From: Pseudanabaena cinerea FACHB-1277
GTDB taxonomy: Bacteria > Cyanobacteriota > Cyanobacteriia > Pseudanabaenales > Pseudanabaenaceae
Length of the DNA stretch: 64,000 nucleotides
Reading direction: 5' to 3'
NCBI RefSeq assembly: GCF_014696345.1
Contig: NZ_JACJPY010000001.1
Coordinates: 47,501 to 111,500, forward strand
The translations under genes and the position numbers were made by a program. Every line of letters starts with the position of its first letter. The first letter of the stretch is position 1. This document shows, in pieces, positions 36,307 to 54,539 of the stretch. The notes under the pieces are model-generated. The model saw nothing but the letters and a program-made list of their open reading frames with translations. It was not told the DNA's origin and ran no database searches.

Positions 36307-38874
36307 TTAGCGCATTGACTCACGGTGAACCTTGACTAACCTAATCTCATCTTCGCCCATTAAATATTTATTCATCATATAAATCACATACTCAGGTTTG
36401 AGATTGCTGTCAGGCTTGCAACTGCCCATAAAGTGAATCGTGGGCAGTTCGGGATCAGGGTTGATTACGTTAATCGTGAATAGGCGATCGCGTAATTCAA
36501 TCATTTGATCGCGCCCTGACTTAGACTTCTTCGGCATTTGAATCGAAGTTGCCGCCAGCACACAGTAACTTGCGCCTTCGAGCATATCCATAATATCCGC
36601 CGCATTGCGCTCCTTGGGCGTGACGAAAGCACAGGTGAGCGTATATTCGGCAACCTCTAGCATCGCATCTAAAGATGGGGCATTTACAGGCACTTCCGCG
36701 ATCGCGTAGATCGGCAAGTCGGCATCAAGTTCCTGTTTGAAGCGTTCTTGAAACTCCTCAACAGGAATCACCTTGGTTAATTCAAAATCCACAAACTCCG
36801 CACTGCTGGTTTGACCCAAGGGCAGAGCCTTAGCAATGGAAATGCGGGGCAGTGGGTTAAACCCTTCTGTATGGGCAACGGGTAAGGCTGCTCGCCGCGC
36901 CGCTCTTTGGAAGAATCGATAGAGATCCAAGTGGGAAATTAAACTCATATCGCCCAGCTTGCCAAACTTCAAGCGAATACGCTGAACTCTGGGCGGAATG
37001 ATCGGCTTTTCTAACGAAATTGGTGGTACTTCGGGTGGTGGAATCACCTCGTTATGTCCAAATTCAGGGCCGCATACCCCACAATGGGAGCAACCGCCAA
37101 AGGAGCAGTCAGGTACAACTTGCGCGGCGATCGCCCTTTCCCAATCTTCGATTAGCCATTGCTTATCAATACCCGTGTCAATATGATCCCAAGGCAGAGG
37201 ATCGGTCATTTTCAACGATGGTGTATCCCAGACTAGACCAGCTTCGGCGATCGCCTGAGTCCATGCCCCGAAAGCTTTTTCTGCATTTTCAAACCATGAG
37301 TCAAACCCTGCGCCCAATTGCCATGCCCGATGCAACACCTTACCCAAGCGGCGATCGCCTCGCCCAATAAAGTCTTCCATCGCACTAATGCGAACTTCCG
37401 TGTAGTTGACCTTCACTCCACTCAAGCGGCGAAATTCCTTGCGAAGTAATTGCTGCTTCCGCACAAACTCGCCACTAGAAACCGTGAACCACTGAAAAGG
37501 CGTATGGGGCTTGGGTGTGAAGTTGGAAATGGTCAAGTTAAAGGAAATCTTCTTCCTGCCCTTTTGTGAACATTCATTTTGCAGCCATTCCACCGTATTG
37601 ACGATGCCAATCACATCCTCATCGGTTTCTGTCGGCAAGCCAATCATGAAATAGAGCTTTACCTTATCCCAACCTTCAACATAGGCAGTTTTCACACCTT
37701 GCAATAGCTCTTCATCGGTCAAGCCCTTATTAATCACATCGCGCAAGCGCTGAGTCCCTGCCTCTGGAGCAAAGGTTAGTCCCTGCTGGCGACCATCACC
37801 ACTGCGGAGCATATGGGCAATATTCTCATCAAAGCGATCGACCCTTTGACTAGGTAAAGAGAGCGTAACGTGTTCATCTTTGAATCGATTTTTAATCTGT
37901 ACGCCCACCGATGGCAAAGCTAGATAATCGGAACAGGATAGAGAAAGCAATGAGAACTCGTTATAGCCAGTTTCCCTAATTGCTCTCTCAATGGTATCCA
38001 CCACCTTCTCAGGTTCCACATCACGGGCGGGACGGGTCAACATCCCTGGTTGACAGAAGCGACAGCCGCGAGTGCATCCGCGTCTAATTTCGATGACTAG
38101 GCGGTCGTGAACGGTTTCCACTAGGGGAACTAAGCCAATGCTATGCTCTGGCATCGGGGTGGCAACACGGCGCAGGGCGCGGGGTGAGACATCCTGACGA
38201 TTAGGAGTAACTGCACCTGTGCGCTCATCCATATCATAAAACTCTGGCACATAAACCCCATCGACCTCATTGGCAAGGGCTAGGAGGGTTTCGCAGCGAG
38301 CTTTACCCGCTAATTTACAGGTTTTGAGAACTTCCCCAATTTCAGGTAATAATTCTTCGCCATCACCAAGGGCAAAGAAATCAAAAAAGTCGGCATAGGG
38401 TTCGGGATTAGATGTGGCAGTTTGTCCCCCTGCAAAGATCAAAGGACATTCTGCAATACTCATTGCACTGCGTTCCTGCCATGTCATGGGAATATTGGCA
38501 AGATCGAACATCTCCAATACATTGGTTGCGCCTAGCTCGTAGCTGAGGCTAAATCCTAAAATATCAAATTCCCGCAGCGATCGCTTGGACTCGACCGCAA
38601 ATAAATCTGTTTGAGTTTCGCGGAGTTTTGCGGATAAATCGGGCGCAGGCAAATAGGCGCGATCGCATAGCTGACCATCTTGAGAATTGATAATGCTATA
38701 CAGGATGATATGTCCCAAGTTGGACGCGCCCACCTCATATATTTCAGGATAGGTGAGCGACCAGCGCACGATCGCTTGATCCCAAGGCTTATGCACTGCG
38801 CCAAACTCGTTACCAAGATAACGGGCAGGTTTCAGGATTTCGGAATTGAGTAACTGTTCTACGGGTACGGGCAT
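36307..38874 (-). CDS. TIGR03960-type radical SAM protein fused to a DUF2344 domain
   Basis: 855 residues. The N-terminal third resembles the B12-binding-like part found in TIGR03960 proteins. The radical SAM Cys motif is in 'IRRGCTRGCRFCQPGM' (CxxxCxxC). 'TFAPEAGTQRLRDVINKG' and 'LYFMIGLPTETDEDV' are typical of the family. The C-terminal 230 residues match DUF2344/TIGR03936 (RIRLKFGKLGDMSLISHLDL, EGFNPLPRISIAKALPLG). A Cys-rich segment (SFGGCSHCGVCG) joins the two parts. The reaction is unknown. The first 35 codons are duplicated at 43.2 kb. Confidence 0.92.
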   Translation of the reverse strand: MPVPVEQLLNSEILKPARYLGNEFGAVHKPWDQAIVRWSLTYPEIYEVGASNLGHIILYSIINSQDGQLCDRAYLPAPDLSAKLRETQTDLFAVESKRSLREFDILGFSLSYELGATNVLEMFDLANIPMTWQERSAMSIAECPLIFAGGQTATSNPEPYADFFDFFALGDGEELLPEIGEVLKTCKLAGKARCETLLALANEVDGVYVPEFYDMDERTGAVTPNRQDVSPRALRRVATPMPEHSIGLVPLVETVHDRLVIEIRRGCTRGCRFCQPGMLTRPARDVEPEKVVDTIERAIRETGYNEFSLLSLSCSDYLALPSVGVQIKNRFKDEHVTLSLPSQRVDRFDENIAHMLRSGDGRQQGLTFAPEAGTQRLRDVINKGLTDEELLQGVKTAYVEGWDKVKLYFMIGLPTETDEDVIGIVNTVEWLQNECSQKGRKKISFNLTISNFTPKPHTPFQWFTVSSGEFVRKQQLLRKEFRRLSGVKVNYTEVRISAMEDFIGRGDRRLGKVLHRAWQLGAGFDSWFENAEKAFGAWTQAIAEAGLVWDTPSLKMTDPLPWDHIDTGIDKQWLIEDWERAIAAQVVPDCSFGGCSHCGVCGPEFGHNEVIPPPEVPPISLEKPIIPPRVQRIRLKFGKLGDMSLISHLDLYRFFQRAARRAALPVAHTEGFNPLPRISIAKALPLGQTSSAEFVDFELTKVIPVEEFQERFKQELDADLPIYAIAEVPVNAPSLDAMLEVAEYTLTCAFVTPKERNAADIMDMLEGASYCVLAATSIQMPKKSKSGRDQMIELRDRLFTINVINPDPELPTIHFMGSCKPDSNLKPEYVIYMMNKYLMGEDEIRLVKVHRESMR

Positions 38875-38945
38875 AGAGTTTTTTGATGATTTGAGCTATG
38901 CCTATTTTACCTAAACCTGTTTTACATTTGCGCGATCGCGATTAG
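38769..38945. repeat. Direct repeat A, copy 1: 5' end and promoter region of the radical SAM gene
   Basis: 38769-38874 matches 43204-43309 without gaps with only 3 mismatches in 106 bp. The match continues more weakly through the upstream region to about 38945 (shared CCTATTTTAC, TTTACATTT and GCGCGATCGCGATT). Both copies have the same orientation and bracket the 38.9-43.2 kb segment. Confidence 0.95.
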
Positions 38946-39045
38946 TTACAATCATCATTTGTAGCATATGAAGAGGTGCGACCTTCATATGCTACCTTCT
39001 CAAATTAGCGAAATCCTTGCCTAGCAAACCTTTTATTAAATTCAT

Positions 39046-39535
39046 TCAAAAATTATTTTCTGAATTAGAGAAAGTCAGAATCTTTACACAGTAACGGGTT
39101 ATCAAGTGGATGTCGCACCCAATGAGATCGTAATCGCGGCGGCATAGCTCAAAGGCAATTTTAGCGGGATCTTGAAGACGGGCTTCTTCAGGCAATGCAG
39201 CTAATTCTAAAGTTGCGAAGAGCGTTACGGGTTTCTAATAGCTTTGTTTGCATGATTTCGAGGGCAATGTTACTAATTCGCAGATTATCGGCTAGGGCTA
39301 ATACCCATTGATGTAGGGATTTCATGCCAACATTGAAACTGGTGTCAATTAGGATTTGGCGATCGCTGCCTGTAACTCCATCAAACAAGCGTCCAATAAA
39401 GCCCCGATTTTGGCGAAAGCGGATCAGGTCATCATTTACTTGAATCCCATTAACCAAATCCACTAATACCTTATCGCTGATAACGGGGACTTGTTGCTCT
39501 AGGTCTTGTAATGATTGAGTTACAAAGTTTTGCAT
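39046..39535 (-). pseudogene. Broken RdcB-like gene with a frameshift or fusion
   Basis: From 39535 the frame gives 115 residues ending at 39188. The segments 'VLVDLVNGIQVNDDLIRFRQ', 'GFIGRLFDGVTGSDRQ' and 'LRISNIALEIMQTKLLETRNALR' resemble the N-terminal third of proteins annotated as RdcB-family diguanylate cyclase regulators, which are about 300 residues. Past the point where this frame ends, an adjacent frame stays open to a TGA at 39046, encoding a convincing stretch ('LELAALPEEARLQDPAKI', 'ELCRRDYDLIGCDIHLITRY'). So the gene is either frameshifted or fused by deletion to the tail of another gene. Confidence 0.6.
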
Positions 39536-39610
39536 TGGGTTATTTATTTACAGATTTTATTGGAGACATATGTTTTAGGGAAGATTCTCAAGATCTAAAC
39601 GAGCAAATAT

Positions 39611-39832
39611 TCAACGTGGTGGTAATTGAGCAATCTCAAAAACTCTCTGAAGTCTTGTGGTATTTGGATCATAGCTATACATTATCTGTCGTAAATATTC
39701 CAAGGCAATTAGGCGATCACGGGGACTTTTATGAAGCCAATAGGTCTTATCTTCTGTATCTTCTTTGGTTAGACTGGTAACGCTAAAGACTTGATGATTA
39801 AATTGAAAGCTATCAAGTTTTTTGTTGTTCAT
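39611..39832 (-). CDS. Small antitoxin-like protein (RLQRVFE family), partner gene missing
   Basis: 73 residues. The pattern 'QVFSVTSL', 'KTYWLHKSPRDRLIALEYLRQIMY' and 'TTRLQRVFEIAQ' resembles small proteins usually encoded directly before a nucleotidyltransferase-type (AbiEii/DUF6036-like) toxin gene. Here no such gene follows; the broken RdcB-like gene comes next. The start overlaps the end of the XisI-like gene by 4 bp. Function is inferred from context known for the family. Confidence 0.65.
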   Translation of the reverse strand: MNNKKLDSFQFNHQVFSVTSLTKEDTEDKTYWLHKSPRDRLIALEYLRQIMYSYDPNTTRLQRVFEIAQLPPR

Positions 39833-40170
39833 TTTTGTAAATCTATAGAATAACTATTAGCTTGCCAACTGGTGATGATATCTTCTTTCTTGATTCCCGC
39901 TTCGATTAGTGTATTAACTAATCCTTCCTCAAAGTTGTCTTCTTCGATGATGACTTGGCGATCGCTGTTGTCTTTTTCGATAAGTCGCGCATGAAATACG
40001 ACAAAATCCACCCATTTTTGTTTATCAAAGCCTGTGGCAAGAACAACAAATTGACCAGATTCTAGATCGCAGACTGGGTAAAGTTTAATTGGTTGTATGC
40101 TTGGTTGATGGATAGTAGCGTCATAGACTACTTTTTTGAGTATTTGTGAATAGTCTACAGGTTTAGACAT
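39829..40170 (-). CDS. XisI-like protein
   Basis: 113 residues. The centre ('YPVCDLESGQFVVLATGFD', 'VVFHARLIEKDN') and the C-terminal 'GLVNTLIEAGIKKEDIITSWQ' resemble XisI, one of the accessory proteins first linked to excision of the fdxN element in Anabaena. Many cyanobacteria carry numerous xisI/xisH pairs away from any such element. No xisH is next to it; instead it lies between a PIN gene (8-bp overlap) and the small RLQRVFE protein (4-bp overlap). Confidence 0.7.
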   Translation of the reverse strand: MSKPVDYSQILKKVVYDATIHQPSIQPIKLYPVCDLESGQFVVLATGFDKQKWVDFVVFHARLIEKDNSDRQVIIEEDNFEEGLVNTLIEAGIKKEDIITSWQANSYSIDLQK

Positions 40171-40588
40171 TTCTCTCTCCTTGAAATAATATTAGAAAAC
40201 CTTCTTGAGTAAAGTGTTTATCGTGGGTCAATATTTCTGTGATTTTGAGACGATCCATGATGATCATTGACATACAATCAGTGAGACTATAGCCTTTGTC
40301 AAGACGATTAGCATACAGATCTAGTCCTTCAATAAAAACTTCTCTAGTATGGGTTATGACTTGAATATTTTTATTTCTGAGAATTTCTCTAGTTCTTTGT
40401 GAAACGCCTAAGCGCATTTCTGAGCCAAACTGCGCGTAGTAGTTAAGCAACTCATTGAGTACTGCGTCAGAAGTTACTAGCTTTACTCCTTTTAGTTGCT
40501 GACTGAAACTGACAACTTGTTGATGCCATTGATCGCGCTGATTACATAAGGCAATCCAGTAGAAAGTATCGACAAAAATTTGTTTCAT
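40163..40588 (-). CDS. PIN-domain ribonuclease (VapC-like toxin)
   Basis: 141 residues, typical PIN size. Conserved acidic residues are visible: Asp7 in 'IFVDTFYWIAL', Glu46 in 'VLNELLN', Asp104 in 'SLTDCMSM' and Asp123 in 'LTHDKHF'. These form the Mg-binding centre of PIN nucleases, which cleave RNA. The gene starts 3 bp after the upstream gene, which is its probable antitoxin, a usual toxin-antitoxin layout. Confidence 0.88.
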   Translation of the reverse strand: MKQIFVDTFYWIALCNQRDQWHQQVVSFSQQLKGVKLVTSDAVLNELLNYYAQFGSEMRLGVSQRTREILRNKNIQVITHTREVFIEGLDLYANRLDKGYSLTDCMSMIIMDRLKITEILTHDKHFTQEGFLILFQGERNV

Positions 40589-40591
40589 AAT

Positions 40592-40978
40592 CTATGCAGA
40601 TTGCTTTGGTGAACCGTATAGATAATGATCGTGATTAGCTGCTCCATCGGTAGGTAAGCGATCAAGAACTTCTGGAGGGATAGATTGGGCAAAGGTTGTA
40701 AAACTTTCCCAAATGGGAACTTCTGTATCTGTTTCCTGCGTTGATGAGTTTACTTGTGGTTCTAATAGATCTTTGTCTTTAGAAATTGATAGTAAATTAA
40801 GTAACTCTTGGGCTGTTGTGTCAAGGATACGAGCAAGAGTAAAGATAGATACTTGGGGCTGTGTGTCTAGTGTAATGATGCCGCTAGGTTGTTCACTTTG
40901 TAGCCATGCTAGAAAATGATCTGGGGTTGTGCCTAATACTTCGGCTGAGGTTTGTAAATCAAGGGTTAGTTTTGTCAT
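40592..40978 (-). CDS. Probable antitoxin of the PIN toxin
   Basis: 128 residues directly upstream of the PIN gene on the same strand with a 3-bp gap. The C-terminal 'VLDRLPTDGAANHDHYLYG' matches the tail of cyanobacterial antitoxins paired with PIN toxins as I remember them. The N-terminal half may form a helix-turn-helix (TSAEVLGTTPDHFLAWLQ and FTLARILDTTAQELLNLL), which would allow autoregulation. Confidence 0.75.
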   Translation of the reverse strand: MTKLTLDLQTSAEVLGTTPDHFLAWLQSEQPSGIITLDTQPQVSIFTLARILDTTAQELLNLLSISKDKDLLEPQVNSSTQETDTEVPIWESFTTFAQSIPPEVLDRLPTDGAANHDHYLYGSPKQSA

Positions 40979-41036
40979 GGGTTTAGAGTTTGATTAAAAA
41001 TTTAAATTTTAAACACAAATTAATTTAAATTGAGAT

Positions 41037-42884
41037 TTAGGGGAAAGGATGCTCTGGAGATTTTTCATAGTGATCCTTCAACTCTTTAATAATATTTTTG
41101 TCATAAGTTAGTAATCCAATTTCTCTCTCTCCGTTAACTCCCATAAAATCACTTGCAGATAAAAAGTTATAACTTGTAATTAGCGCCCATTTATCGTCAC
41201 ATATTAAAAATTTTTCATGAGTTCCTAATAGCTTGAATTGAATACACTGAAGTCTTTGTAAGCTATTAAAAGCATTGTAGCCACTTTTAGCCAACAATAC
41301 TTGAGCAGACTTTTTTGCTGAATTTATATCATAGAGATTTCCCCATCCTATATGTATTGTAACATTGTTGTTCTGTAATGCTTGTTGAATGTGATGTAGC
41401 AGATCTGGATTAACTGCATTTTGACTAATCCAAGGACATACCATAATCAAAGTTTGCTTAGCTTCACTTAATGCGCTTAATAATTTAGATCGAATAGCAG
41501 GACGACCATAAATTAACTCATATCTATGAGGCTCAATTTGATTAAGTATTTTCTTTGTCTCATTAAAGTTATTGTTAGTATCATCTTCCAGTTTACTTAT
41601 TTTATTAATTAAATTTTCTACTATTTCGGTTAAATTTGATAATTTTTCTATTCTAGAATTTAATGAATCAAAATTCTCTTGTCTTTGTTTCTGAAGGTTA
41701 CCTTGATTAATATCCAAATTTCTTGATTTATCGTTCAAGTCTTCAACTTGTTTAGTTAAATCTGTAAGTTTTCTTATTATAGAATTTAGTGAATTAAAAT
41801 TATTTTGAGTTTGATGATTAGAATTACCTATATTAATGGATATATTTTCTAATCCATTAGTTAAATCCTTAACTTGGTTAATTAAATCTGGAATAATTTC
41901 AATTTTTGCATATATAGAATCAAAATTATTTTGATTTTGATGATTAGAGTTACCTAGATTGATAGATACATCATCTAATTTCTCATGTAAAACATTTAAT
42001 TTTTTGGATAAATCTGATATATCTTCTATACTAGAAAATAATGAAGCAAAGTTGTTTTGAGTCTGTTGCTGATGATTGCCCAAATTTATGAATATATCAT
42101 TAAACTTGTCAGATAGATCCTCAACTTGATTAGTTAAGTTTGGAATCTTTTCTATTCTAGCGTTTAATGAATCAAAGTTATTTTGAACCTGCTTTTGATG
42201 ATTCCCTAGATTTATGAATACAGTCTTCATTCTGTCATCTAAGCTTGTAACACGCTCATTTAGATTAGGAAGTTCTTCTAGTTGAGAGTTTAATGAATCA
42301 AAGTTATTTTGAACCTGCTCTTGATGATTTCCTAGATTTATGAATACTGTTCTCACTCTGTCATCTAAGTTTGCAATACGCTCATTTAGATTGGGAAGTT
42401 CTGCTAGTTGGGAGTTTAGCGAATCAAAGTTATTTTGTGTCTGTTTCTGATGATTGCCTAAGTTTATAGATACGTTGCCTAATTGTTTATCTAAGCTTGC
42501 AATACGCTCATTTAGATTGGGAAGTTCTTCTAGTTGAGAGCTTAGCGAATCAAAGTTATTTTGCGTCTGTTCGTGATGATTGCCTAAATTTATAGATACA
42601 TCCTTTAATTTTTCATCTAGGACTGCTACTTGGGTGGTTAAGTTTGAGATGTCTGTCGTTGCTACACCAATTTTAGCCAAAACATTATTTATTACAGAAA
42701 TCTTTACATTGCTTTGGGTTTGCTTTTTTATATCTTCGTTACGGTTAACAAGATTTAGGAATAGCGCAAAAGTTATAGGCATGGCAGCGTAAACAGCCTG
42801 ACTGGAAAAAGCCCAGACAATTGCCCCAATTGCTGAAGCAGCGATCGCAATTCGTTCAAGATTTTCAGTAGGAATTTTTTTCAA
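41037..42884 (-). CDS. Membrane-anchored repeat coiled-coil protein with a C-terminal phospholipase D (HKD) domain
   Basis: 615 residues. Two hydrophobic segments (about 11-24 and 28-46) should anchor the N-terminus in a membrane. Residues 94-429 are eight 42-residue repeats (exactly six heptads each) with the core (I)NLGNHxxQxQNNFDSL, followed by a leucine- and charge-rich heptad part, a probable long coiled-coil rod. Residues about 452-615 form a PLD-like domain with a single motif 'HEKFLICD' (HxKx4D) followed by 'ALITSYNFL'. One HKD motif means an active enzyme would need a dimer, as in Nuc-type nucleases. It might be a nuclease or phospholipase effector. I know of no named family with this architecture. 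Confidence 0.82.
   Translation of the reverse strand: MKKIPTENLERIAIAASAIGAIVWAFSSQAVYAAMPITFALFLNLVNRNEDIKKQTQSNVKISVINNVLAKIGVATTDISNLTTQVAVLDEKLKDVSINLGNHHEQTQNNFDSLSSQLEELPNLNERIASLDKQLGNVSINLGNHQKQTQNNFDSLNSQLAELPNLNERIANLDDRVRTVFINLGNHQEQVQNNFDSLNSQLEELPNLNERVTSLDDRMKTVFINLGNHQKQVQNNFDSLNARIEKIPNLTNQVEDLSDKFNDIFINLGNHQQQTQNNFASLFSSIEDISDLSKKLNVLHEKLDDVSINLGNSNHQNQNNFDSIYAKIEIIPDLINQVKDLTNGLENISINIGNSNHQTQNNFNSLNSIIRKLTDLTKQVEDLNDKSRNLDINQGNLQKQRQENFDSLNSRIEKLSNLTEIVENLINKISKLEDDTNNNFNETKKILNQIEPHRYELIYGRPAIRSKLLSALSEAKQTLIMVCPWISQNAVNPDLLHHIQQALQNNNVTIHIGWGNLYDINSAKKSAQVLLAKSGYNAFNSLQRLQCIQFKLLGTHEKFLICDDKWALITSYNFLSASDFMGVNGEREIGLLTYDKNIIKELKDHYEKSPEHPFP
41598..42605. repeat. Eight tandem 126-bp coding repeats
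   Basis: The 42-residue units of the PLD protein are also similar at DNA level, most strongly in the four 5' copies (minus strand, about 42100-42605). Units nearer the PLD domain are more diverged. Unequal crossing-over could change the rod length. Confidence 0.85.
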
Positions 42885-42955
42885 TGGCTTATTTACAGTG
42901 CAACAAATGCTAGACGATGTTTTTATTTTTCATCCCACATAACATAATGCTATTC

Positions 42956-43066
42956 TCAGTATAACCTTTGACTAGCATACTTCATCAAGTCCCGAACTTG
43001 TGTCAAAACATCAACTACAGATTTCTGAATTGCATGGATATCAGGCTTTAGAGCGTCATTAGACAT
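42956..43066 (-). CDS. Small ORF, 36 residues, with a strong ribosome binding site
   Basis: ATG at 43066, stop TGA at 42956-42958. The 5' side has AGGGGTGA about 7 nt before the ATG, one of the better Shine-Dalgarno matches in the region. The product begins MSNDALKPDIHAIQKS and is amphipathic and helical in appearance. It could be a small partner of the downstream PLD gene, which begins about 70 bp further on the same strand. Not recognised. Confidence 0.45.
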   Translation of the reverse strand: MSNDALKPDIHAIQKSVVDVLTQVRDLMKYASQRLY

Positions 43067-43203
43067 AAATTGATCACCCCTTGTATGTTGATGTTTTGAG
43101 AATTATCTATGACTATAACTTGAAAATGCTTAAAAAATAACATGAAATGATAAAGATATTTATAGATCTTAATTATGCTTCGTGGTTACTCATCAACACC
43201 AAG

Positions 43204-43370
43204 CGATCGCCTGATCCCAAGGCTTATGCACTGCGCCAAACTCATTGCCAAGATAACGGGCAGGTTTCAGGATTTCGGAATTGAGTAACTGTTCTACGGG
43301 TACGGGCATGGTTTCACGAGTATGTGAGCTAACCCTATTTTACATTTAGCGCGATCGCGATTTCATTTCA
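43204..43370 (-). pseudogene. Direct repeat A, copy 2: truncated 5' end of the radical SAM gene joined to a Uma2-type tail at a HIP1 site
   Basis: The first 35 codons of the 36.3-kb radical SAM gene are repeated from the ATG at 43309 back to 43204, followed upstream by related promoter sequence to about 43370. The match ends in GCGATCGC. On the other side, in a different frame, the minus strand reads RSLGVDE and a stop at 43186, much like the RSLGIDDE tail of the Uma2 remnant at 54.54 kb. The fragment cannot encode a functional protein. Confidence 0.9.
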
Positions 43371-43440
43371 TCACGGGTAAACAGATGTTAGCGATCGCAA
43401 AACAAGTAAAATAAGAGCATTACGAACAATGTAGATTTTT

Positions 43441-44061
43441 ATGGCATACAGTGACTTCACCTTTAGTAAAGTCAAAGAAGCTTTTCAGTTAACCATTGAC
43501 GAAAAGACAAATCTTTTTGCAAATACAGCTAAAGTTGCACCTTCCCAAATCTTGACGACACTGCTACAAGAAAACCTATCCTTTGCGATCGCCGTTGGTA
43601 CTGAAAAAGCAAGATCGGAATTTATCATTGCTCAGGTATTGGGGGAAGTGCGTCGCCAATTGAATTATAAAATTTCATTGTTTTCTGGTTCAGAGTTTAC
43701 GGTCGATCGCGATCGCGGATTGACAGGGTTTTGCGATTTTTTATTGAGCAGTTCTGAAGAACAGTTAGAAATCACATCTCCTGTAGTGATTATTATTGAG
43801 GCAAAGCGAGAAGATATTTTTGGTGGTGTCGGTCAATGTATTGCGGCGATGGTGGCGGCGCAAATCTTTAACGAACAACATCATAACAAAATCCCAATTA
43901 TTTATGGAGTTGTTACTAGTGGCACGAATTGGCGGTTTATTAAACTAGAAAAAAATTTAGTCCAGATTGATGCGATCGAATACTACATTAGCGAAGTGGA
44001 TAAGATTTTAGGAATATTATTAGAACCATTGCGATCGGTTTCTCAGCTTGTAAGTGTTTAA
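43441..44061 (+). CDS. PD-(D/E)XK nuclease-like hypothetical protein
   Basis: 206 residues. The segment 'GLTGFCDFLLSSSEE', followed by 'PVVIIIEAKRE' and 'GGVGQCIAAMVAAQIFN', gives an Asp and an ExK motif in the right order for a PD-(D/E)XK fold, and this pattern is frequent among cyanobacterial hypothetical proteins. A Gln shortly after the ExK (in GQC) resembles the QxxxY-type helix of RecB-like nucleases. The gene stands alone between pseudogenes. Its role, restriction or something else, is unknown. Confidence 0.65.
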   Translation: MAYSDFTFSKVKEAFQLTIDEKTNLFANTAKVAPSQILTTLLQENLSFAIAVGTEKARSEFIIAQVLGEVRRQLNYKISLFSGSEFTVDRDRGLTGFCDFLLSSSEEQLEITSPVVIIIEAKREDIFGGVGQCIAAMVAAQIFNEQHHNKIPIIYGVVTSGTNWRFIKLEKNLVQIDAIEYYISEVDKILGILLEPLRSVSQLVSV

Positions 44062-44112
44062 ATTGCTGTAAGCAGTAATTTTAGTTAAAAACTAACATTC
44101 TCATAAAGATCA

Positions 44113-44935
44113 TGGTTTACCTACAATAGTTTGCTGATGGATGTTTACAGGTAGTCATAAATCTCTGGCACACTGAGCGATCGCGTAGAGTTTCCAGTCC
44201 GCACATAGAGTTCAACTCCTTTTTCTGACTTGAGAAATGCAGCTTGTTTGGCTTTGCGGACATACACGCCGCAAATATCTTAATCGTTGATATGGATTTA
44301 AGATCGTTGATAGCTTTTGGGGTAATCTTTAGTTGTAAAAGAAATTTTTCAAACTGTTGATATTGGGGGTTTTCAGCCGTAAGTTTACGCATGGCGCGGC
44401 GAGTTTTAGACTCAATTACGGCGAGTTGATTGTTTACTTCATCAGAAATATCGTGAGCAGTCTTAGAAACAATTTCTATTAGCTGTTTGTAGTTACTATG
44501 GGAAACCTGTGCGATCGCTGCTTTTTCATTGGCTCTCTGACTAGCGATGCCCTGTTGTAACTTTTCAAGGTCATTGACAATTTCCTTAACAAGAGGGTGT
44601 TCTCCTTCCATTCTCTTAAGCAAGCGATAGGATATTGATCGCAGTACTGCTATTTCGTTACCAATTTTGTGATACATGGCACGATAGAGCATTTCGATAT
44701 CATCAATTTGCTCTTCATCGGCTCCAAATAGTTCGTAAGAAGTTTCTTCATCAGCGTTAAGGGCGATCGCTTTCATAGCTTCAGCATAGCGAGATGGGTT
44801 TTCTTCAATTAGATTAATTGCTGATTGATTATTGATATTGTATGCTATGGCAATGCAACTATTGTAAGCTGAGAGGCGATAATAATTGTTCAAACTGGTA
44901 AGATATAATCGAATAGGTTTACGGATTAAAATCAT
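44113..44935 (-). pseudogene. Fossil duplicate of the TPR kinase and REC-AlbA regulator genes with a large internal deletion
   Basis: 44293 to about 44840 is nearly identical to 51553-52090, the dimerisation-like region of the TPR kinase. At 44292 the sequence switches to the last 175 bp of the REC-AlbA gene (compare 44113-44292 with 49884-50059). The equivalent of 50060-51552, which holds the kinase ATPase domain and most of the regulator, is missing. The remaining 272-codon frame reads the regulator tail in the wrong frame and carries a junk N-terminus, so it is not functional. Confidence 0.93.
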
Positions 44936-44944
44936 AGAAAATTT

Positions 44945-46078
44945 ATGATTGCAACAGACACCAAAAAAAAAGCAAATAATGAAAACGAGATAATAGAAAC
45001 GGATGATGACACCTTAGAAGAAGATCAAGGTGAAGAAGGGCTATATCCTTACGATCCTACTGAAGCAGATATTGATATTCGTGAAGACCCTCAAACTGTT
45101 TTCGAGTTGATGCGAAAATATGATCATGGCAAGCTAATTATTGAGCCTGATTTTCAGCGCAATCTGGTTTGGGAAAGAACGCAACAAAGTAAGTTTATTG
45201 AATCAGTTATTTTAAATTTCCCCATACCTCCCTTTTATGTCAATCAAACAAGAGAGGGAAAATATATAGTTGTTGATGGACTACAACGCACTAGCACTTT
45301 GTATGAATTTGTAAATAATGGATTTAAGCTTCAGGGATTAGAGGCACTTAAAAAATTAAATGGGTATAGTTTCTCTGATTTGAAAAATCTATCGGGAGAC
45401 TATCAAACAAAAATTGAGGATAAGAAACTTAACCTTTATGTAATTAGACCATCGGTTCCTTCTAAGGTTGTTTATGATATTTTCAATAGGATTAATACAG
45501 GTGGAACTAATCTACAACGTCAAGAAGTACGAAATTGTATATTTTTAGGTAAATCCACACAGTTACTTAAAGAGTTAGCTGAGTCAGATGAGTTTAAAGT
45601 TGCGATTAATCAAGGTATTTCACCCAAGAGAATGAAAGATAGGGAAGCAGTTTTAAGATATCTGGCTTTTAGGATTTTTGACTATGAAAAAGATTATCAA
45701 GGTGATATGAGTAATTTTCTAGAAACTGCAATGAAAAAGATAAATACAATGAAGTCATCAGAAATTGAGTCTTTAAAAGATGATTTTCAAAGAGTTATGA
45801 ATATTACTTATGAGTTCTTTGGTAAGAGAAACTTTCGTTTGCCTACGAATCAAACTAGAGGGAAAATCAGCATTGCAATTTTTGAGTCAGTAGCTTATTT
45901 CTTCTCTATTAAAGAAGATTTGTTTTTAAAACAACATAAAACACAAATCATCGATAACTTTGAAAGGCTTATCAAAAATGCAGATTATTTAGACTCTGTA
46001 AAAAATGCTACTAGTAGTAAGGCTAAAGTTATTAGTAGATTCAACCTAGCTCAGGAAATTCTAGGAGATATAAAATGA
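44945..46078 (+). CDS. DUF262 (GmrSD-N-like) protein, first gene of a defence-like operon
   Basis: 377 residues. An acidic N-terminus (about 15-45) precedes the DUF262 core: 'IIEPDFQRNLVWERTQQSKFIES', 'LNFPIPPFYV', the DGLQR motif at 111-115 and 'IFNRINTGGTNLQRQEVRN'. DUF262 has a ParB/Srx-like fold and in GmrSD binds nucleotide for cleavage of modified DNA. The C-terminal DUF1524 HNH nuclease of GmrSD is absent. The stop overlaps the next start by 4 bp (ATGA), showing tight coupling. The gene is AT-rich and has no GCGATCGC octamer. Confidence 0.88.
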   Translation: MIATDTKKKANNENEIIETDDDTLEEDQGEEGLYPYDPTEADIDIREDPQTVFELMRKYDHGKLIIEPDFQRNLVWERTQQSKFIESVILNFPIPPFYVNQTREGKYIVVDGLQRTSTLYEFVNNGFKLQGLEALKKLNGYSFSDLKNLSGDYQTKIEDKKLNLYVIRPSVPSKVVYDIFNRINTGGTNLQRQEVRNCIFLGKSTQLLKELAESDEFKVAINQGISPKRMKDREAVLRYLAFRIFDYEKDYQGDMSNFLETAMKKINTMKSSEIESLKDDFQRVMNITYEFFGKRNFRLPTNQTRGKISIAIFESVAYFFSIKEDLFLKQHKTQIIDNFERLIKNADYLDSVKNATSSKAKVISRFNLAQEILGDIK

Positions 46079-47355
46079 TAACTCAAATAGAAATAGAAAA
46101 TTTCAAGTGTTTTAAAAATAGAGTGTCTTTCCCTTTAGGGAAGTTAACCTTATTAACAGGTATTAATGGCAGAGGTAAATCAACTTTACTTCAATCATTG
46201 TTACTGATGAGACAATCTATCGAGCATGATGAAAGTACTAGTAAAATCCTTTTGAATGGTAGTTGTGTTAATTTAAATAATTTTGACGATGTTCGGAATA
46301 AAGATACGATAAAAGATAAACCAATAATATTCAAATATTATTATAAATCTGTAAACTTAGGAAATGGATATTTTGAATATTGTTTTATTGAAAATGATGA
46401 TGAAATGACATTATATATTCCACAGTTAACTTTTTATTCCGAAGCAAAATTTAGATTTGAAAAATTGATTTTTAATACATTATTTGATAATAAAATAGTT
46501 TTTCGATGTGAACGTCAAGAAAATTTTTTATATAGAAAAGATTTTAATTTAACTATTTTTACAAACTTATTAAATTTAGTTCCTAGTAAATTTAATTTCA
46601 CTCATATAAACGAAGTACTTGAAACGCTAGTGTCACCTTTTGAATCTGTTTTAAATTTTAATTTTATTCATTACATCTCTGCCGATCGCATTGGACCAAA
46701 AGACTTTTATCTTAAATCAACTCTAGATAAATTCCCCAATGTTGGGGCAAGAGGTGAATTTACAGCTAATTTACTCTATAAAAAACAAGATGATTTAGTT
46801 GATGATAGACTCTGCTTAGGTGAAGATGCGAAAACCCTTATTACACAGACAGAAGCATGGCTAAGTAAAATCTTCGGTGGTGCAAAACTTGAAATACCTA
46901 GTTCAAAAAGCAGTGTTCTAGAATTACTATTTAATACAAGTGCATCAAAGGATCGGTTTAAACCTGCAAATGTAGGCTTTGGATTTCATAGCGTTCTACC
47001 AATTATCGTTTCAGGATTAATCGCCAAAGAAGGTGAAATATTAATCGTGGAAAATCCCGAAATACATCTACATCCAAGAGCGCAATCTGAGTTAACTAAA
47101 TTCCTCGCTAAAGTTAGTAGTTGTGGAGTACAGGTTTTAGTTGAGTCCCACAGCGATCATATTTTAAATGGTTTACGCATAGCAGTACTTGACAAAATAA
47201 TTGATTCAGAAGATCTAAGTATTCTATATTTTCAAAACGATTTAGAAAGTCCAGTTGTGCAAATACCCGTACAATCAGATGGTGGTATCGAAGAATGGCC
47301 AGATGACTTCTTTGATCAGACATCCAAAGATTTTGAAAGACTTTTTGGTATTTAA
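46075..47355 (+). CDS. AAA-type ATPase, DUF3696 family (OLD/SMC-like)
   Basis: 426 residues. The N-terminus 'ITQIEIENFKCFKNRVSFPLGKLTLLTGINGRGKST' has Walker A at 29-36. The C-terminal half shows 'GFGFHSVLPIIV' (signature-like), Walker B 'ILIVENPEIHLHPRAQSEL' and 'VLVESHSDHILNGLRIAV'. It closes with 'GGIEEWPDDFFDQ', the WPxGFFDQ-like ending typical of DUF3696. There is no Toprim domain. Such ATPases act as sensors or motors in several defence operons. It is coupled to the DUF262 gene and 2 nt from the next gene. Confidence 0.88.
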   Translation: MITQIEIENFKCFKNRVSFPLGKLTLLTGINGRGKSTLLQSLLLMRQSIEHDESTSKILLNGSCVNLNNFDDVRNKDTIKDKPIIFKYYYKSVNLGNGYFEYCFIENDDEMTLYIPQLTFYSEAKFRFEKLIFNTLFDNKIVFRCERQENFLYRKDFNLTIFTNLLNLVPSKFNFTHINEVLETLVSPFESVLNFNFIHYISADRIGPKDFYLKSTLDKFPNVGARGEFTANLLYKKQDDLVDDRLCLGEDAKTLITQTEAWLSKIFGGAKLEIPSSKSSVLELLFNTSASKDRFKPANVGFGFHSVLPIIVSGLIAKEGEILIVENPEIHLHPRAQSELTKFLAKVSSCGVQVLVESHSDHILNGLRIAVLDKIIDSEDLSILYFQNDLESPVVQIPVQSDGGIEEWPDDFFDQTSKDFERLFGI

Positions 47356-47357
47356 AT

Positions 47358-48206
47358 ATGGAAATATTTACCAATGAAGTTTCATTGGAAGGACAATATA
47401 CTAGCGAATCGGAATTTGTTAGTGCAATCAAAGATTTTATTGAAATATTTAAACTATTAAATAAAAAGACAAATAATAAACAAGTTTACAAAGAAGATAG
47501 TAAGTTATTTGTTAACTATAATGCTATTAGAGAATCAAATTTTAGTGCTAGCCTCAATATAATCAAAGACAAATCTTTAAAGCAAGCCTTTGTAGAAATA
47601 GTATTTAACAAGCAAAATCCTAAAGAGTGGCGAAAAGAGCAGTTACACTGCCCTAACGATTTATTTGATTACTTGAATAATGAAACATCCAAAAATGTAA
47701 ATGATACATCTTTAGCGGAGATTTCAGAAAGATCTCTAAGGAATAAAGACTCAATTTATTTAGTCATAAATTTTAAAAATTCAACTTTTAATTTATTGCA
47801 TCCAGATATTAAAGATTGCTGCATAATTCCAATCATAAAAAATAATGACGAAACACAACTCATTAAATTAGATGGAATTGACAGCTATTTAGCACTACAA
47901 AATTGGCTAGAAGTAAAATTAAGCTTAAGCAGAATAGAATATGATCTTTTGTCAAAATACCCACCTAAAGACCAACAAACAATATTGAGAGATACTCAGA
48001 GATTTCAAAAAACACAAAATATTTATGATGGAAGAACTATATATCGTGAAATTCTAAATGATCGGTATTGGTATGTAGATAATCTTCATTTTGGTCAGGC
48101 ATCGCATATTGAGGTTTTTAACGCCCAAGGAAACCATATTGGTGAATCTGATTTAGAGGGAAATATTGATGAGACAAAAAAAGATTTAAATAAAAAGATC
48201 TTCTGA
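47358..48206 (+). CDS. Unrecognised third protein of the DUF262/DUF3696 operon
   Basis: 282 residues, starting 2 nt after the ATPase gene. I recognise no family for residues 1-225. The C-terminal 55 residues ('GRTIYREILNDRYWYVDNLH', 'HIEVFNAQGNHIGESDL') resemble a short module I associate with toxin-like cyanobacterial proteins, but I cannot name it. There is no signal or membrane segment. Context says it works with the ATPase and the DUF262 protein, perhaps as effector or specificity part. Confidence 0.75.
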   Translation: MEIFTNEVSLEGQYTSESEFVSAIKDFIEIFKLLNKKTNNKQVYKEDSKLFVNYNAIRESNFSASLNIIKDKSLKQAFVEIVFNKQNPKEWRKEQLHCPNDLFDYLNNETSKNVNDTSLAEISERSLRNKDSIYLVINFKNSTFNLLHPDIKDCCIIPIIKNNDETQLIKLDGIDSYLALQNWLEVKLSLSRIEYDLLSKYPPKDQQTILRDTQRFQKTQNIYDGRTIYREILNDRYWYVDNLHFGQASHIEVFNAQGNHIGESDLEGNIDETKKDLNKKIF

Positions 48207-48260
48207 GGATATAGCGATCACTAGGCTATCTATTCTTAACACTACCTGCCCTCCTTCATC

Positions 48261-48332
48261 TAATCACAATAATATTTCACAATTATAGTGATATAAATTT
48301 CAGGACAGGTGCGCGGCTAACAGGCGATTAGT
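48261..48332. repeat. Dispersed intergenic repeat, copy 1
   Basis: About 72 bp similar to 54450-54522 in the same orientation, sharing CACAATAATA, GATATAAATT, CAGGACAGGT and CTAACAGGCGAT in order. It lies just upstream of a Uma2 gene; the other copy lies next to a Uma2 remnant. Confidence 0.8.
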
Positions 48333-48950: not shown

Positions 48951-49265
48951 GTACGCTCAAAATACTCTTCTTCCCACATCACATAGCTGTTACGCGAACC
49001 GCAATTTTTGCGCCGCTCCACACCTAAAGCTCAAAAACCCATCAGGAATAACAGGAACTCTAGGATTTACGCCAGTAGTGTGATAGATACCCATATCCAC
49101 CCCAAAGTACCAATCATCAAGATTTTTCCAAATATATTCTAGTAGGAATAACAGTAAATTTGGGACAAAATTCTGATCTTCGTTATCCACAGGCGTATCA
49201 TCAGAATCTGGTAATTCGTCACTGGTGGGTAGATGTTTGAGATCGATTTGTAGCATCGGAATCAC
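48951..49265 (-). pseudogene. Truncated, frameshifted Uma2-type gene
   Basis: From 49265 the frame encodes the N-terminal part of a long-form Uma2 protein ('LPTSDELPDSDDTPVDNE', 'DWYFGVDMGIY', 'VPVIPDGFLSF'). After 'GFLSF' it shifts; the neighbouring frame continues the family with 'ERRKNCGSRNSYVMWEEEYF' to about 48951, where similarity stops. So there is one frameshift and a missing C-terminal half. Confidence 0.85.
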
Positions 49266-49312
49266 CGCAAAAGTATCTTAGCTATCTAACGGATATTATA
49301 GGAGACTTTTCT

Positions 49313-49879
49313 CTAAAATTTGACATCTTCATAAAGCTCGGCAAATTTCCCTTCAAAATTGATGCTCGACAATTGGAATTTATCTTGCTCTCCAGAGTAT
49401 GACTTTAACAGCCAAAGTCCATCTTGATTGCGGCAGAAACAGTCAAGGCGCTGGCGTTTGGTGTTGACTAGGACATATTCTTCTAGAGTTTCTATTTGTT
49501 GATAATCAGCAAATTTGTCACCACGGTCGAATCCTTCGGTAGATTTGGATAGAACTTCGATAATTAGTTTTGGATATCTCTTTTGATTTTGTGATTCGGT
49601 ATCTCTAGGATCGCAAGTTACCATAACATCTGGATAATAAAAACGGTTCAATGAATCGATTCTCGCTTTCATGTCAGAAATATAAACACGACAGCCTGAT
49701 CCTCGTAAATGATTACGAATCATCATAAAAGCATTACTTGCGATCGTCACATGAGGATCGTTTGCGCCAGCCATTGCATAAACATATCCATCGATATATT
49801 CATGTTTGATTTCGCTTTGCTCTTCCATTTCGAGATATTGGTCGGGAGTTATGTAATCAAATTTTGGTGTTGCAATCAT
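49313..49879 (-). CDS. Uma2 family (DUF820) putative nuclease
   Basis: 188 residues. 'ITPDQYLEMEEQSEIKHEYIDGYVYAMAGAN' near the N-terminus, 'FYYPDVMVTCD' and 'KLIIEVLSKSTEGFDRGDKFADYQ' provide the Asp, Glu and Lys of the PD-(D/E)XK-like core. It is complete and starts with a normal ATG. It lies 30 bp downstream of the REC-AlbA gene on the same strand, so it may be read from the same transcript. Confidence 0.92.
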   Translation of the reverse strand: MIATPKFDYITPDQYLEMEEQSEIKHEYIDGYVYAMAGANDPHVTIASNAFMMIRNHLRGSGCRVYISDMKARIDSLNRFYYPDVMVTCDPRDTESQNQKRYPKLIIEVLSKSTEGFDRGDKFADYQQIETLEEYVLVNTKRQRLDCFCRNQDGLWLLKSYSGEQDKFQLSSINFEGKFAELYEDVKF

Positions 49880-49910
49880 GATTTATTTACAATAGTTGGC
49901 TGATAGGTGT

Positions 49911-50981
49911 TTACAGATAATCATAAATCTCTGGGACGCTGAGCGATCGCGTTGAATTTCCAGTCCGCACATAGAGTTCTAATCCTCTTTCTGATTTGAG
50001 AAATGCGGCTTGACTGGCTTTGCGGACATACACGCCGCAGATATCTTGATCGTTGATTTTAGTAAAACGGATTTTTAGATAGGGGAGAAACTTGATTCCT
50101 ATTTTGTTTTTGATTAGTTCTACCAGATGACGTTCAAAGTTATCGAGGGTGCGATTACGCGGATCTTTAAAGGACTGAATATCTTTCTCTAATCCAAACA
50201 GGTTTCCATTATCTTCAACACCAATGATTACTGTCCCACCTTCAGAGTTCAGGAATGCAGCAATACTCTTGAGGACACTATCTTGCAATTTTTCATTTTT
50301 GGTGTTTTCGCGGACATCCCATTGCAGAGAGCTTTTAAACTCTAGGGTATCACTTTCGCCTAGTTGAATTAGTTCCTCGATAGAACGTAGATCGCCAATT
50401 TTTTTAATCGTGGTGGTAAATCGTCTGAGTTTGCGTTCTTCTAGTTTTGTGAATAGTTCTGTTTCACTATCCGCAAAGTCGATGACAACTTGATTGGCGA
50501 TCGCAATGTATTGTCCCCAATATTTGGCTTCAAGATCCTGCTGATTTTCTGCAAACCATTGTTGATTGGAGAGATTGCCCCAGCGATTGAGATAGGCGAT
50601 CGCCTCTTGAATGGAATCATTGAGGGTATCAAAGGCGTTACCTGTGGGCGGATTTTTGGATATGTAGTCCCAAGCCTTTGATTTCCATGCGCGATAGCAG
50701 TCTTCTAAGGACTCATTGGCGGTAAAAATAATCACGACTGAGGATAGGTTGCGCTGTTGCACCCAATCGAGAATCGTAAAACCTGCATCAGCCTCATCGT
50801 ACATTCGCATATCCGAAACTATGATATCAAAAGGATCTGCCAGTTTTTCTAATGCCTCTGCGGTGGTGGTGGCGGTGACTATTTCCTCATAGCCAAAGTC
50901 TTCGCGTAGCCACATTAGCAACTCATTCAAGTTATCGGCTCGGTCTTCGATTACTAGGAGATGGGCGTTTTGAGTTTGCAT
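49911..50981 (-). CDS. Response regulator fused to an AlbA_2/Schlafen-type domain
   Basis: 356 residues. The REC domain (about 5-125) has 'LLVIEDRADN', phospho-acceptor Asp57 in 'FDIIVSDMRMYDEADAG' and a Lys in 'AWDYISKNPP'. A linker with helices follows (130-205). Residues about 208-356 match the AlbA_2 (PF04326) group: 'GESDTLEFKSSLQWD', 'SIAAFLNSEGGTVIIGVEDNG', 'LVELIKNKIGIKFLPYL' and 'VRTGNSTRSL'. AlbA_2 proteins bind nucleic acid and some are ATPases or nucleases. The gene is 51 bp after the TPR kinase and should be its partner. Part of its 3' end is duplicated at 44.1 kb. Confidence 0.88.
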   Translation of the reverse strand: MQTQNAHLLVIEDRADNLNELLMWLREDFGYEEIVTATTTAEALEKLADPFDIIVSDMRMYDEADAGFTILDWVQQRNLSSVVIIFTANESLEDCYRAWKSKAWDYISKNPPTGNAFDTLNDSIQEAIAYLNRWGNLSNQQWFAENQQDLEAKYWGQYIAIANQVVIDFADSETELFTKLEERKLRRFTTTIKKIGDLRSIEELIQLGESDTLEFKSSLQWDVRENTKNEKLQDSVLKSIAAFLNSEGGTVIIGVEDNGNLFGLEKDIQSFKDPRNRTLDNFERHLVELIKNKIGIKFLPYLKIRFTKINDQDICGVYVRKASQAAFLKSERGLELYVRTGNSTRSLSVPEIYDYL

Positions 50982-51032
50982 GATTCTCTGTTTTTTGAAT
51001 GATTTTACAATGCTTTGCTAGAAGACATTTGA

Positions 51033-54000
51033 CTATAAATATGGCAAATATATCTGAAATCTTACCCCTTTACCTGCTTCGCCGACTTCTCGGATTTGTC
51101 CACCCATTTTTTTGATGGTTTTACGGGCGATGAATAGTCCTAAGCCACTACCCTTGTCTTCGGGGGATGTGGTTTTTAGGGGTTGGAAGATCCAATCTTT
51201 TTTATCGTTTGGTACGCCTTGACCGTTATCTTTAAATTCGATGTATAAAAATTTGCGATCGCCAGGGATGGTCGGACTGCCTACGTCCATAGGATTGTCC
51301 ATATCGCTAGAATACATACGGATCGATAAATTAGGGTTGCCGTGATTATGCTTGAGTGAATTTTCCACAAGTTCATTGAGAATGCTTTTAATTTTCTCTT
51401 CATCACCATTAAATTCTGCGTCTGGATTACGAATGTCAAGACGAATCCGCACACCATCGATGCGCGGTTGGCTTGTCCAGTTGGCTGGCTCCCATTTTTC
51501 AAATAATTGATGCACTAAAAAGCGATTTCTCCGAATGGTTTTGCCTTCATTAATGGATTTAAGATCGTTGATAGCTTTTTGGGTAATCTTTAGCTGTAAA
51601 AGAAATTTGTCAAACTGCTGATATTGGGGATTTTCATCCGTAAGTTTACGCATGGCGCGGCGAGTTTTAGACTCAATTACGGCGAGTTGATTGTTTACTT
51701 CATCAGAGATGTCATGGGCAGTTTTAGAAACAATTTCTATTAGCTGTTTGTAGTTACTGTGGGATATACCTGCGATCGCTGCTTTTTCATTGGCTCTCTG
51801 ACTAGCGATGCCCTGTTGCAACTTTTCAAGGTCATTGACAATTTCCTTAACAAGAGGGTGTTCTCCTTCCATTCTCTTAAGCAATCGATAGGAAATTGAC
51901 CGCAGTACTGCTATTTCGTTGCCAATTTTGTGATACATGGCACGATAGAGCATTTCGATATCATCAATTTGCTCTTCATCGGCTCCAAATAGTTCGTAAG
52001 AAGTTTCTTCATCAGCATTAAGGGCGATCGCTTTCATAGCTTCAGCATAGCGAGGTGAGTCTTCTTGGATTTTGAGTAATAGGTTAATTGCTTCTTGACT
52101 ATTGGGATTTGTTGCTAAAAGGCTACGGGCAGCATAGAGAATGGTTTTATCTTGTTCGTCTGAGTTAGCGATCGCTTCTTCAAAAAATTGTTTTCCTAAG
52201 TCAATTTGAGCTAATCGATAATACAATCGCCCAAGATTTAATCTAATAATGTTGGCGTGATAAGTCTTTTGTGTGGCTAATTCAATTGCCAAAAGTTGTG
52301 TAAGAGCTTCCTTAATATTGCCTTCTGCTTCAAGTTGTTTGGCATACTGCAATCGAGCATAGGAATCATTTGGGCAAAGTTCGATTAGTCGCCACCATGA
52401 ACAGGATTGAACTAGGGCATTTGCATAGCTGTTTAATGTGCGGACATCACTTCTATCTAATTGTAAGCATTGTTCAAAGAAATCAGAAGCGCGTTGATAT
52501 TGTCCTTGCAGTACTAAGGCATTTGCATAGCTAACCAATGTACGGATATTACTTTTATCTAATTTTAATGAAAGCTCAAATAATTCATTAGCATTTTGAT
52601 ACTCTCCTTGTTTGACTAGAGCATTTGCATAGCTGTTTAATGTAAGAATATCATTTTTATCTAATTGTAAGCATTGTTCAAATAATTCATTCGCCTGTTG
52701 ATATTCTCCTTGTTCTACTAATGTATTTGCAAAACTAGTTAATACACGAAAATTATTTGGCTCTAATTTTAAGCATTGTTTAAACAACTCAGAAGCACGT
52801 TGAAATAGTCTTTGCTGCACTAATGAATTGGCATAGCTGGTTAATGTGCGGACATCATTTCTATCCAGTTGTAGGCATTGTTCAAACAATTCATTAGCAT
52901 ACTGATATTCTCCTTGCTCTACTAACGCATTTGCGTAGCTGTTTAGTGTAGGAATATTATTTGGCTCTAATTGCAATGAACATTCAAATAATTCACTAGC
53001 CTGTTGATACTCTCCCTGTTGTACTAACGAACTTGCATAGCTGTTTAGCGTGCGAAAATTATTTGGCTCTAATTGCAATGAATATTCAAACAATTCACTA
53101 GCCCGTTGATACTCTTCTTGTTTTACTAACGCATTTGCGTAACTGTTTAGTGTGCGAAAATTATTTGGTTCTAGCTTTAAGCATTGTTCAAATAATTCAG
53201 AAGCACGTTGATATTTACATTGCTCTACTAATGCGTTTGCATAGCTATTTAGTGTAGGGATATTATTTGGCTCCAATTGCAATGAATATTCAAACAATTC
53301 GCTAGCCCTTTGATACTCTCCCTGTTGAGCTAACGAAATTGCATAGCTATTTAGTGTGCGAAAATTATTTGGTTCTAACACTAAGCATTGTTCAAACAAT
53401 TCACTAGCACGATGATACTGTTCCTGTTGTGCTAACAAAATTGCATAGCTATTTAGTGTAGGAATATTATTTGGCTCCAATTCTAAACATCGCTCGAACA
53501 ATTTAGAAGCTCTTTGATATTCTTCTTGTTGAGCTAAAGCATTTGCATAGCTGTTTAAAATGTAAACATTATTTTTTTCTAATTGTAAACATTGTTTAAA
53601 TAATTCACAAGCACCTTGATATTCTCCTTGTTGCACTAATGCATTTGCATAACTAGTTAAGGTAGGAGTATTATTTTTATCTAACTGTAATGAATGCTCA
53701 AACAATTCATTTGCACGTTGATATTCTCCTTGTTGCACTAATGCATTTGCATAACTAGTTAAGGTAGGAACATTATTTTTACTTAATCGTAAGCATTGTT
53801 CAAATAGCTCATTCGCTTTTTGATAAGCGCCAGCCATTGCTGCTGCCCTACCATATGCTGAAGTAATGCTTAAATTATTTGGTTCAAGTTCTAAGCCATG
53901 TTCAAAAAGTTCAAACACTCTTGTAAAGTTTCTCTGATGATTTAAAACTTTAATGTAACTAAAAATATTTTTAATGCTGTCTGGCTCTAATTTTAAGCAC

Positions 54001-54257
54001 CTTTCAAATAATTCACTTGCTTTACTATATTGGTTAGTATCTCTCATTGCCTTAGCATAATCTGCAATAATTTCAGCATTATTCGGATAAATCACTAGAG
54101 CTTGATCAAATAATGCGATCGCCTCTTCTAACTTCCCTGCCTTAGCTAAATCTCTAGCTTTTCTACTCAGTTCAGTTGCCTTCGCTAACTCACCAGAATT
54201 AACTACTTCACTAGAAGTATCTATCTCATTTGTACCTTGCAAAGTAAAACCACTCAT
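51033..54257 (-). CDS. Giant TPR-repeat histidine kinase
   Basis: 1074 residues. Residues about 27-604 are 17 tandem 34-residue TPR units with the core SYANALVxQGEYQRASELFEQCLxLEPNN; a less regular helical part follows to about 720. Residues about 730-900 are helical and look like a dimerisation region. It has no standard H-box, but 'AMYHKIGNEI' and 'TAHDISDEVNNQ' could supply the phospho-acceptor His. The C-terminal HATPase domain has the N-box 'LNELVENSLKHNHGN', 'DNGQGVP' and 'GSGLGLFIARKTI'. There is no membrane segment, so it should sense something in the cytoplasm, perhaps a protein. The next gene encodes the matching regulator. Confidence 0.9.
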   Translation of the reverse strand: MSGFTLQGTNEIDTSSEVVNSGELAKATELSRKARDLAKAGKLEEAIALFDQALVIYPNNAEIIADYAKAMRDTNQYSKASELFERCLKLEPDSIKNIFSYIKVLNHQRNFTRVFELFEHGLELEPNNLSITSAYGRAAAMAGAYQKANELFEQCLRLSKNNVPTLTSYANALVQQGEYQRANELFEHSLQLDKNNTPTLTSYANALVQQGEYQGACELFKQCLQLEKNNVYILNSYANALAQQEEYQRASKLFERCLELEPNNIPTLNSYAILLAQQEQYHRASELFEQCLVLEPNNFRTLNSYAISLAQQGEYQRASELFEYSLQLEPNNIPTLNSYANALVEQCKYQRASELFEQCLKLEPNNFRTLNSYANALVKQEEYQRASELFEYSLQLEPNNFRTLNSYASSLVQQGEYQQASELFECSLQLEPNNIPTLNSYANALVEQGEYQYANELFEQCLQLDRNDVRTLTSYANSLVQQRLFQRASELFKQCLKLEPNNFRVLTSFANTLVEQGEYQQANELFEQCLQLDKNDILTLNSYANALVKQGEYQNANELFELSLKLDKSNIRTLVSYANALVLQGQYQRASDFFEQCLQLDRSDVRTLNSYANALVQSCSWWRLIELCPNDSYARLQYAKQLEAEGNIKEALTQLLAIELATQKTYHANIIRLNLGRLYYRLAQIDLGKQFFEEAIANSDEQDKTILYAARSLLATNPNSQEAINLLLKIQEDSPRYAEAMKAIALNADEETSYELFGADEEQIDDIEMLYRAMYHKIGNEIAVLRSISYRLLKRMEGEHPLVKEIVNDLEKLQQGIASQRANEKAAIAGISHSNYKQLIEIVSKTAHDISDEVNNQLAVIESKTRRAMRKLTDENPQYQQFDKFLLQLKITQKAINDLKSINEGKTIRRNRFLVHQLFEKWEPANWTSQPRIDGVRIRLDIRNPDAEFNGDEEKIKSILNELVENSLKHNHGNPNLSIRMYSSDMDNPMDVGSPTIPGDRKFLYIEFKDNGQGVPNDKKDWIFQPLKTTSPEDKGSGLGLFIARKTIKKMGGQIREVGEAGKGVRFQIYLPYL
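52446..54179. repeat. Seventeen tandem 102-bp coding repeats (TPR units)
   Basis: The central units (about 52600-53800) are strongly similar at DNA level, with near-identical blocks such as TTTGCATAGCTGTTTA, showing recent expansion and homogenisation. Confidence 0.9.
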
Positions 54258-54522: not shown

Positions 54523-54539
54523 ATTTTGATCACAACGCT

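Follow-up and report, generated by a model that had tools for sequence, protein, structure and literature searches.

The locus analyzed in the current work lies in a 64,000-nucleotide stretch of DNA from a Pseudanabaena cyanobacterium (referred to as the window), where a variable spot upstream of a radical-SAM gene (TIGR03960/TIGR03936; 36307-38874, minus strand; named SAM below) is present in two divergent versions, placed side by side in direct orientation. The right version consists of part of a Uma2B gene followed by the Uma2A gene (49313-49879, minus strand; Pfam Uma2, 1.9e-40, and relatives), an intact gene pair and a scar, also present in the left version, at 54444-54518. The intact pair is composed of a response regulator of 356 aa with an SLFN_AlbA_2 domain at its C-terminal end (49911-50981, minus strand) and a TPR histidine kinase of 1074 aa (51033-54257, minus strand), the TPR region of which (52407-53825) contains 102-bp direct repeats that are about 75% alike. 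The AlbA_2 part of the regulator resembles plasmid proteins annotated as DUF262 domain-containing, from Sinorhizobium and Haloquadratum, and a search of plasmids returned matches to this part of the regulator only. Upstream of the intact kinase, 3' pieces of Uma2B and a 5' piece of SAM are found in scrambled order (54384-54644), representing a second set of SAM-edge scars.

With regard to the distribution of the pair, a contig search gave matches in SR411 and two distant ones, and a genome of the same genus (G016) carries the kinase. In the distant cyanobacterium G059 (L105, 4738-5811), the kinase is followed by a regulator cut down to residues 1-60 and 334-356, which is another broken regulator of such a kinase/regulator pair. 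No study of this kinase/AlbA_2-regulator pair was present among the top results of a literature search.

The left version (43204-48328) runs parallel to the intact locus, its pieces being arranged in the same order: a copy of the SAM 5' end at its left edge (43204-43343, minus strand; 90.8% identity to 38769-38910), a 206-aa gene of unknown family (43441-44061, plus strand) which lies beside SAM in relatives G025, G015 and G032, a fossil of the kinase/regulator pair, a complete Menshen operon and a scar (48254-48328) matching, with 82.7% identity, the one located upstream of the intact kinase. The original prediction had recognized a fossil copy of the pair at 44113-44935; this copy is real, and the repeated block is larger than had been proposed, as it takes in the SAM 5' fragment and the upstream scar. 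The operon described there as DUF262/DUF3696 is the Menshen system, with adjacent nsnA (44945-46078), nsnB (46075-47355) and nsnC (47358-48206) genes which, together with their upstream sequence, occupy 44886-48206 on the plus strand (limits set from relatives; PADLOC E-values of 5.9e-121, 9.9e-123 and 1.1e-97 for NsnA, NsnB and NsnC, respectively). Menshen is an anti-phage system that includes a DUF262 protein together with a nuclease of predicted OLD type (PMC10952713). The operon of the window, assigned from its genes, agrees with that description in having nsnA, nsnB and nsnC in order and in pairing a DUF262 protein with an OLD-type nuclease partner; nothing notable sets it apart except its position, which is the place expected for the 5' half of the decayed kinase.

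At its outer edge, the SAM 5' fragment is fused to a stretch resembling the 3' end of Uma2B (43152-43210), the joint falling in CGATCGC, a sequence common to both sources and part of the cyanobacterial HIP1 palindrome. The region between SAM and the SAM 5' fragment (38911-43151) holds separate cargo, i.e. an XisI-like gene, a PIN-domain (VapC-like) gene and a gene for a 615-aa PLD protein that partially matches MkoB of Mokosh. The latter gene contains, at 41629-42646, internal direct repeats at multiples of 126 bp, and coiled-coil-like matches were obtained in this region.

Self-BLAST of the window resolved the fossil into two tracts. The first (44109-44291, minus strand) corresponds to the 3' end of the regulator gene and the non-coding sequence that extends to the start of Uma2A (49875-50057; 183 bp, gap-free, 88.5% identity, E-value 4e-58), and the second matches the kinase gene (44292-44840 to 51553-52104; 554 columns, 93.3% identity, E-value 0). 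Taken up to its outer limit, the latter tract (44292-44847, minus strand; 92-93% identity to 51553-52117) represents the linker and dimerisation region of the kinase, without the ATPase domain and most of the TPR region. Both tracts retain the source order and the direct orientation relative to the intact pair, and chance is excluded as an explanation for these matches; a search of the whole genome with the fossil as query returned the fossil itself and the intact locus only. The tracts touch at 44291|44292, while their sources are 1,495 bp apart (50058-51552), so that a single junction has cost the left pair its kinase ATPase domain and the bulk of the regulator, and Menshen takes the place of the 5' half of the kinase. 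A decayed copy of the pair, fused at a single internal junction and oriented as the intact one, is thus what the original prediction had anticipated, and in these respects it was borne out.

What remains of the pair is the linker and dimerisation region of the kinase and approximately the last 48 codons of the regulator, the latter interrupted in the regulator's own frame by one premature stop (TAA in place of the CAA of the intact copy). Absent from the fossil are the receiver domain and the kinase ATPase domain, which lie within or beyond the missing segment, and the greater part of AlbA_2. Homology in source order around a missing internal segment and the loss of essential domains (kinase ATPase and receiver) are features of a deletion pseudogene that the fossil displays. 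The sources of the two tracts do not overlap at the junction, yet the 10-mer GATCGTTGAT is found on both sides of the junction region: in the intact locus, one copy has its end at the regulator breakpoint and the other is placed about 10 bp within the kinase breakpoint. A common 10-mer was encountered in just 45 of 20,000 trials with random pairs of 50-bp windows, so that the deletion may have been aided by short homology. Simple slippage between the two copies of GATCGTTGAT was rejected, as it would delete one copy and both persist in the fossil.

Besides the high identity and the one internal junction expected from the original prediction, alignment revealed a second breakpoint near 44847, where the kinase match stops and the Menshen module starts. 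Divergence climbs to 16/62 immediately before this breakpoint, and the sequence common to the Menshen loci of G030, G031 and G028 starts at 44886. On the other side of the fossil, no Uma2 gene is present to the left of 44109, where one would be expected.

Comparison of the sequence upstream of SAM extended to 22 relatives, all of other species. The genes adjoining SAM vary and include Uma2A, Uma2B, a third Uma2 gene, the 206-aa gene and others. The arrangement in G025 (SAM-206aa-Uma2A) corresponds to that of the left block, from which Uma2A is now gone (44062-44108), while that in G019 (SAM-Uma2B-Uma2A-Uma2p) corresponds to the right block, its Uma2B-Uma2A stretch resembling 48962-49879. In G008, the order is SAM-Uma2A-regulator-kinase, where the kinase ORF encompasses 589 aa only and is followed by transposase-like ORFs. 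The sequence just upstream of SAM occurs as two types, and the host's own SAM and the left fragment differ in type (a distinction made over only 45 bp). The most suitable reading of the left block is that it represents another allele of this spot. Initially, G024 and G014 had suggested a tandem-duplication joint at 49246-49305, which was dropped since G019 shows the Uma2B-Uma2A order to be natural. In G018 (L074, 2171-2638), a 3' piece of Uma2B followed by a partial copy of SAM (residues 1-101) is located upstream of the intact SAM gene, from which it follows that SAM-edge duplication happened more than once or is old.

The age of the left version was assessed from its divergence. Over the 498 nucleotides of the kinase part, the fossil and intact copies differ at 23 positions with five amino-acid changes (dN 0.017, dS 0.176, dN/dS 0.095); the non-coding sequence by Uma2A differs at 6/36 positions and the scar at 13/75, whereas the SAM fragment differs from the host SAM gene at 3/105 positions and in no amino acid. 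The unequal identity of the two tracts (88.5% vs 93.3%) vanishes at silent and non-coding sites, at which the blocks are separated by approximately 0.13-0.18, a level compatible with a single separation. At the SAM 5' region, the host and the closest of the sampled relatives differ by a dS of 0.37, about twice this level. Codon changes assigned to the fossil branch are eight silent and one replacement (neutral replacement fraction 0.73; p 2e-4), and from this ratio the left kinase would have been under constraint during most of its separate history, i.e. probably a working gene that lost its middle late. The high identity between fossil and intact copies would thus reflect constraint and not youth.

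The original prediction had taken this identity as a sign of a recent duplication. A local duplication of the pair alone, with the internal deletion following soon after, would account for the high identity, the shared orientation and the single internal junction, and the fossil and intact tracts are indeed sisters (97% bootstrap among five sequences). A recent tandem duplication is expected to show little silent or non-coding divergence; the silent divergence given above, together with the non-coding divergence of about 17%, does not support it, nor do the replacement changes on the fossil branch, which are far below neutral, or the extension of the repeat to the SAM 5' fragment and the upstream scar. 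We consider such a recent event unlikely.

A second alternative is that the kinase fragment is a functional small gene, the product of which, a dimerisation-domain protein, would pair up with the intact kinase to dampen or redirect its activity. The frame is open across the kinase part, few replacement changes are seen, and the low dN/dS could mean that the remnant is still under selection; late deletion accounts equally well for this constraint. The ORF concerned (44117-44935, minus strand; 272 aa) is a chimera which starts in the Menshen upstream sequence, and follows the kinase frame up to the junction, beyond which the regulator tail is read in the wrong frame; its two ends are thus either foreign or out of frame. 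A likeness of its N-terminus to the end of the kinase TPR region was rejected, as 44886-44935 is Menshen upstream sequence common to relatives. The ORF has no Pfam match, and no stand-alone gene like the kinase fragment, besides the fossil itself, was retrieved from 388 cyanobacterial genomes, where the eight matches to the fragment (in seven genomes) all fall within longer frames. The ORF is probably not a gene, the fossil is most likely non-functional, and the small-gene proposal is highly improbable. Equally improbable is an assembly error or the accidental abutment of two unrelated insertions, for which the unequal identity of the tracts and the draft assembly of 179 contigs might speak, given that the tracts keep their source order and orientation, the scar and the flanking non-coding sequence are in the expected places, the identity gap is gone at silent and non-coding sites, and the copies, 7-12% apart, are too divergent for easy read collapse.

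The explanation that best accommodates these observations, and which as a whole we hold to be probable, is that the left version is an old working allele which was set beside the right one and decayed late, 44109-44847 being a non-functional residue of the second version of the TPR-kinase/AlbA_2-regulator pair. The left version would have evolved as a working allele and would have been brought beside the right one via homologous recombination in shared flanks, either by unequal exchange or by uptake of DNA from a related strain. Its pair would then have decayed late, perhaps once Menshen had displaced the kinase start, and the fossil would now be functionless, save as a direct repeat that could allow the loss of the intervening segment. 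Sequence comparison favours this explanation through the two gap-free-joined tracts in source order, the SAM 5' end and upstream scar in matching order, the resemblance of G025 and G019 to the left and right arrangements, the similar silent and non-coding divergence across the pieces, the 8:1 ratio of silent to replacement changes, the differing SAM-upstream type, the assignment of Menshen and the absence of a stand-alone fragment gene from the 388 genomes. Against it, the order of events is one that we infer, the SAM-upstream types rest on 45 bp, the low dN/dS could indicate a fragment still selected, and the coding part of the SAM fragment is closest to the host's own SAM (102/105), which is as compatible with a duplication in the lineage itself as with import.

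Judging from the repeat lengths, loop-out between the direct repeats is possible, with exact runs shared by the fossil and the intact locus reaching 95 bp in the kinase tract and 25 bp in its regulator counterpart; no loop-out form was observed. If the exchange fell in the kinase tract, the TPR half of the intact kinase would become joined to the fossil, and the intact ATPase domain, the regulator and Menshen would go. If it fell in the short tract of the regulator, the intact pair would be preserved.

The spot is comparable to the core defence hotspots cDHS1 and cDHS2 of Pseudomonas aeruginosa, where variable cargo is likewise found by a conserved gene, an integrase is not evident, and transfer through homologous recombination in the conserved flanks has been proposed (PMC10250203). 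It is unlike them in that most relatives carry few genes, of Uma2 type, at the spot; variable small genes were seen upstream of SAM across the 22 relatives, and the PADLOC scan covered the genes of the window. More tentatively, the spot may grow by repeated stacking of whole alleles via homologous recombination in the flanks, each round leaving a SAM-edge scar and a decaying older version, such that the array would be a readable record of successive cargoes. Such stacking is consistent with the SAM-edge repeats of the window and of G018 and with a stretch of G008 that resembles the SAM upstream sequence, and this wider pattern of repeats is of mild interest.

The fossil itself is a case of ordinary gene decay in a variable, mosaic, defence-bearing locus. 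It is similar to the gene-remnant pseudogenes that arise by internal deletion in genomic islands, being a partial copy with one internal deletion, both ends cut and a premature stop in one part, and differs from them in that its silent divergence probably points to a long phase as a working allele before decay. It also illustrates that a gene remnant may be highly identical to the intact copy at the DNA level without the duplication being recent, and its context suggests how cargo at a cyanobacterial locus, where an integrase is not evident, can be exchanged while leaving decayed predecessors beside their replacement.
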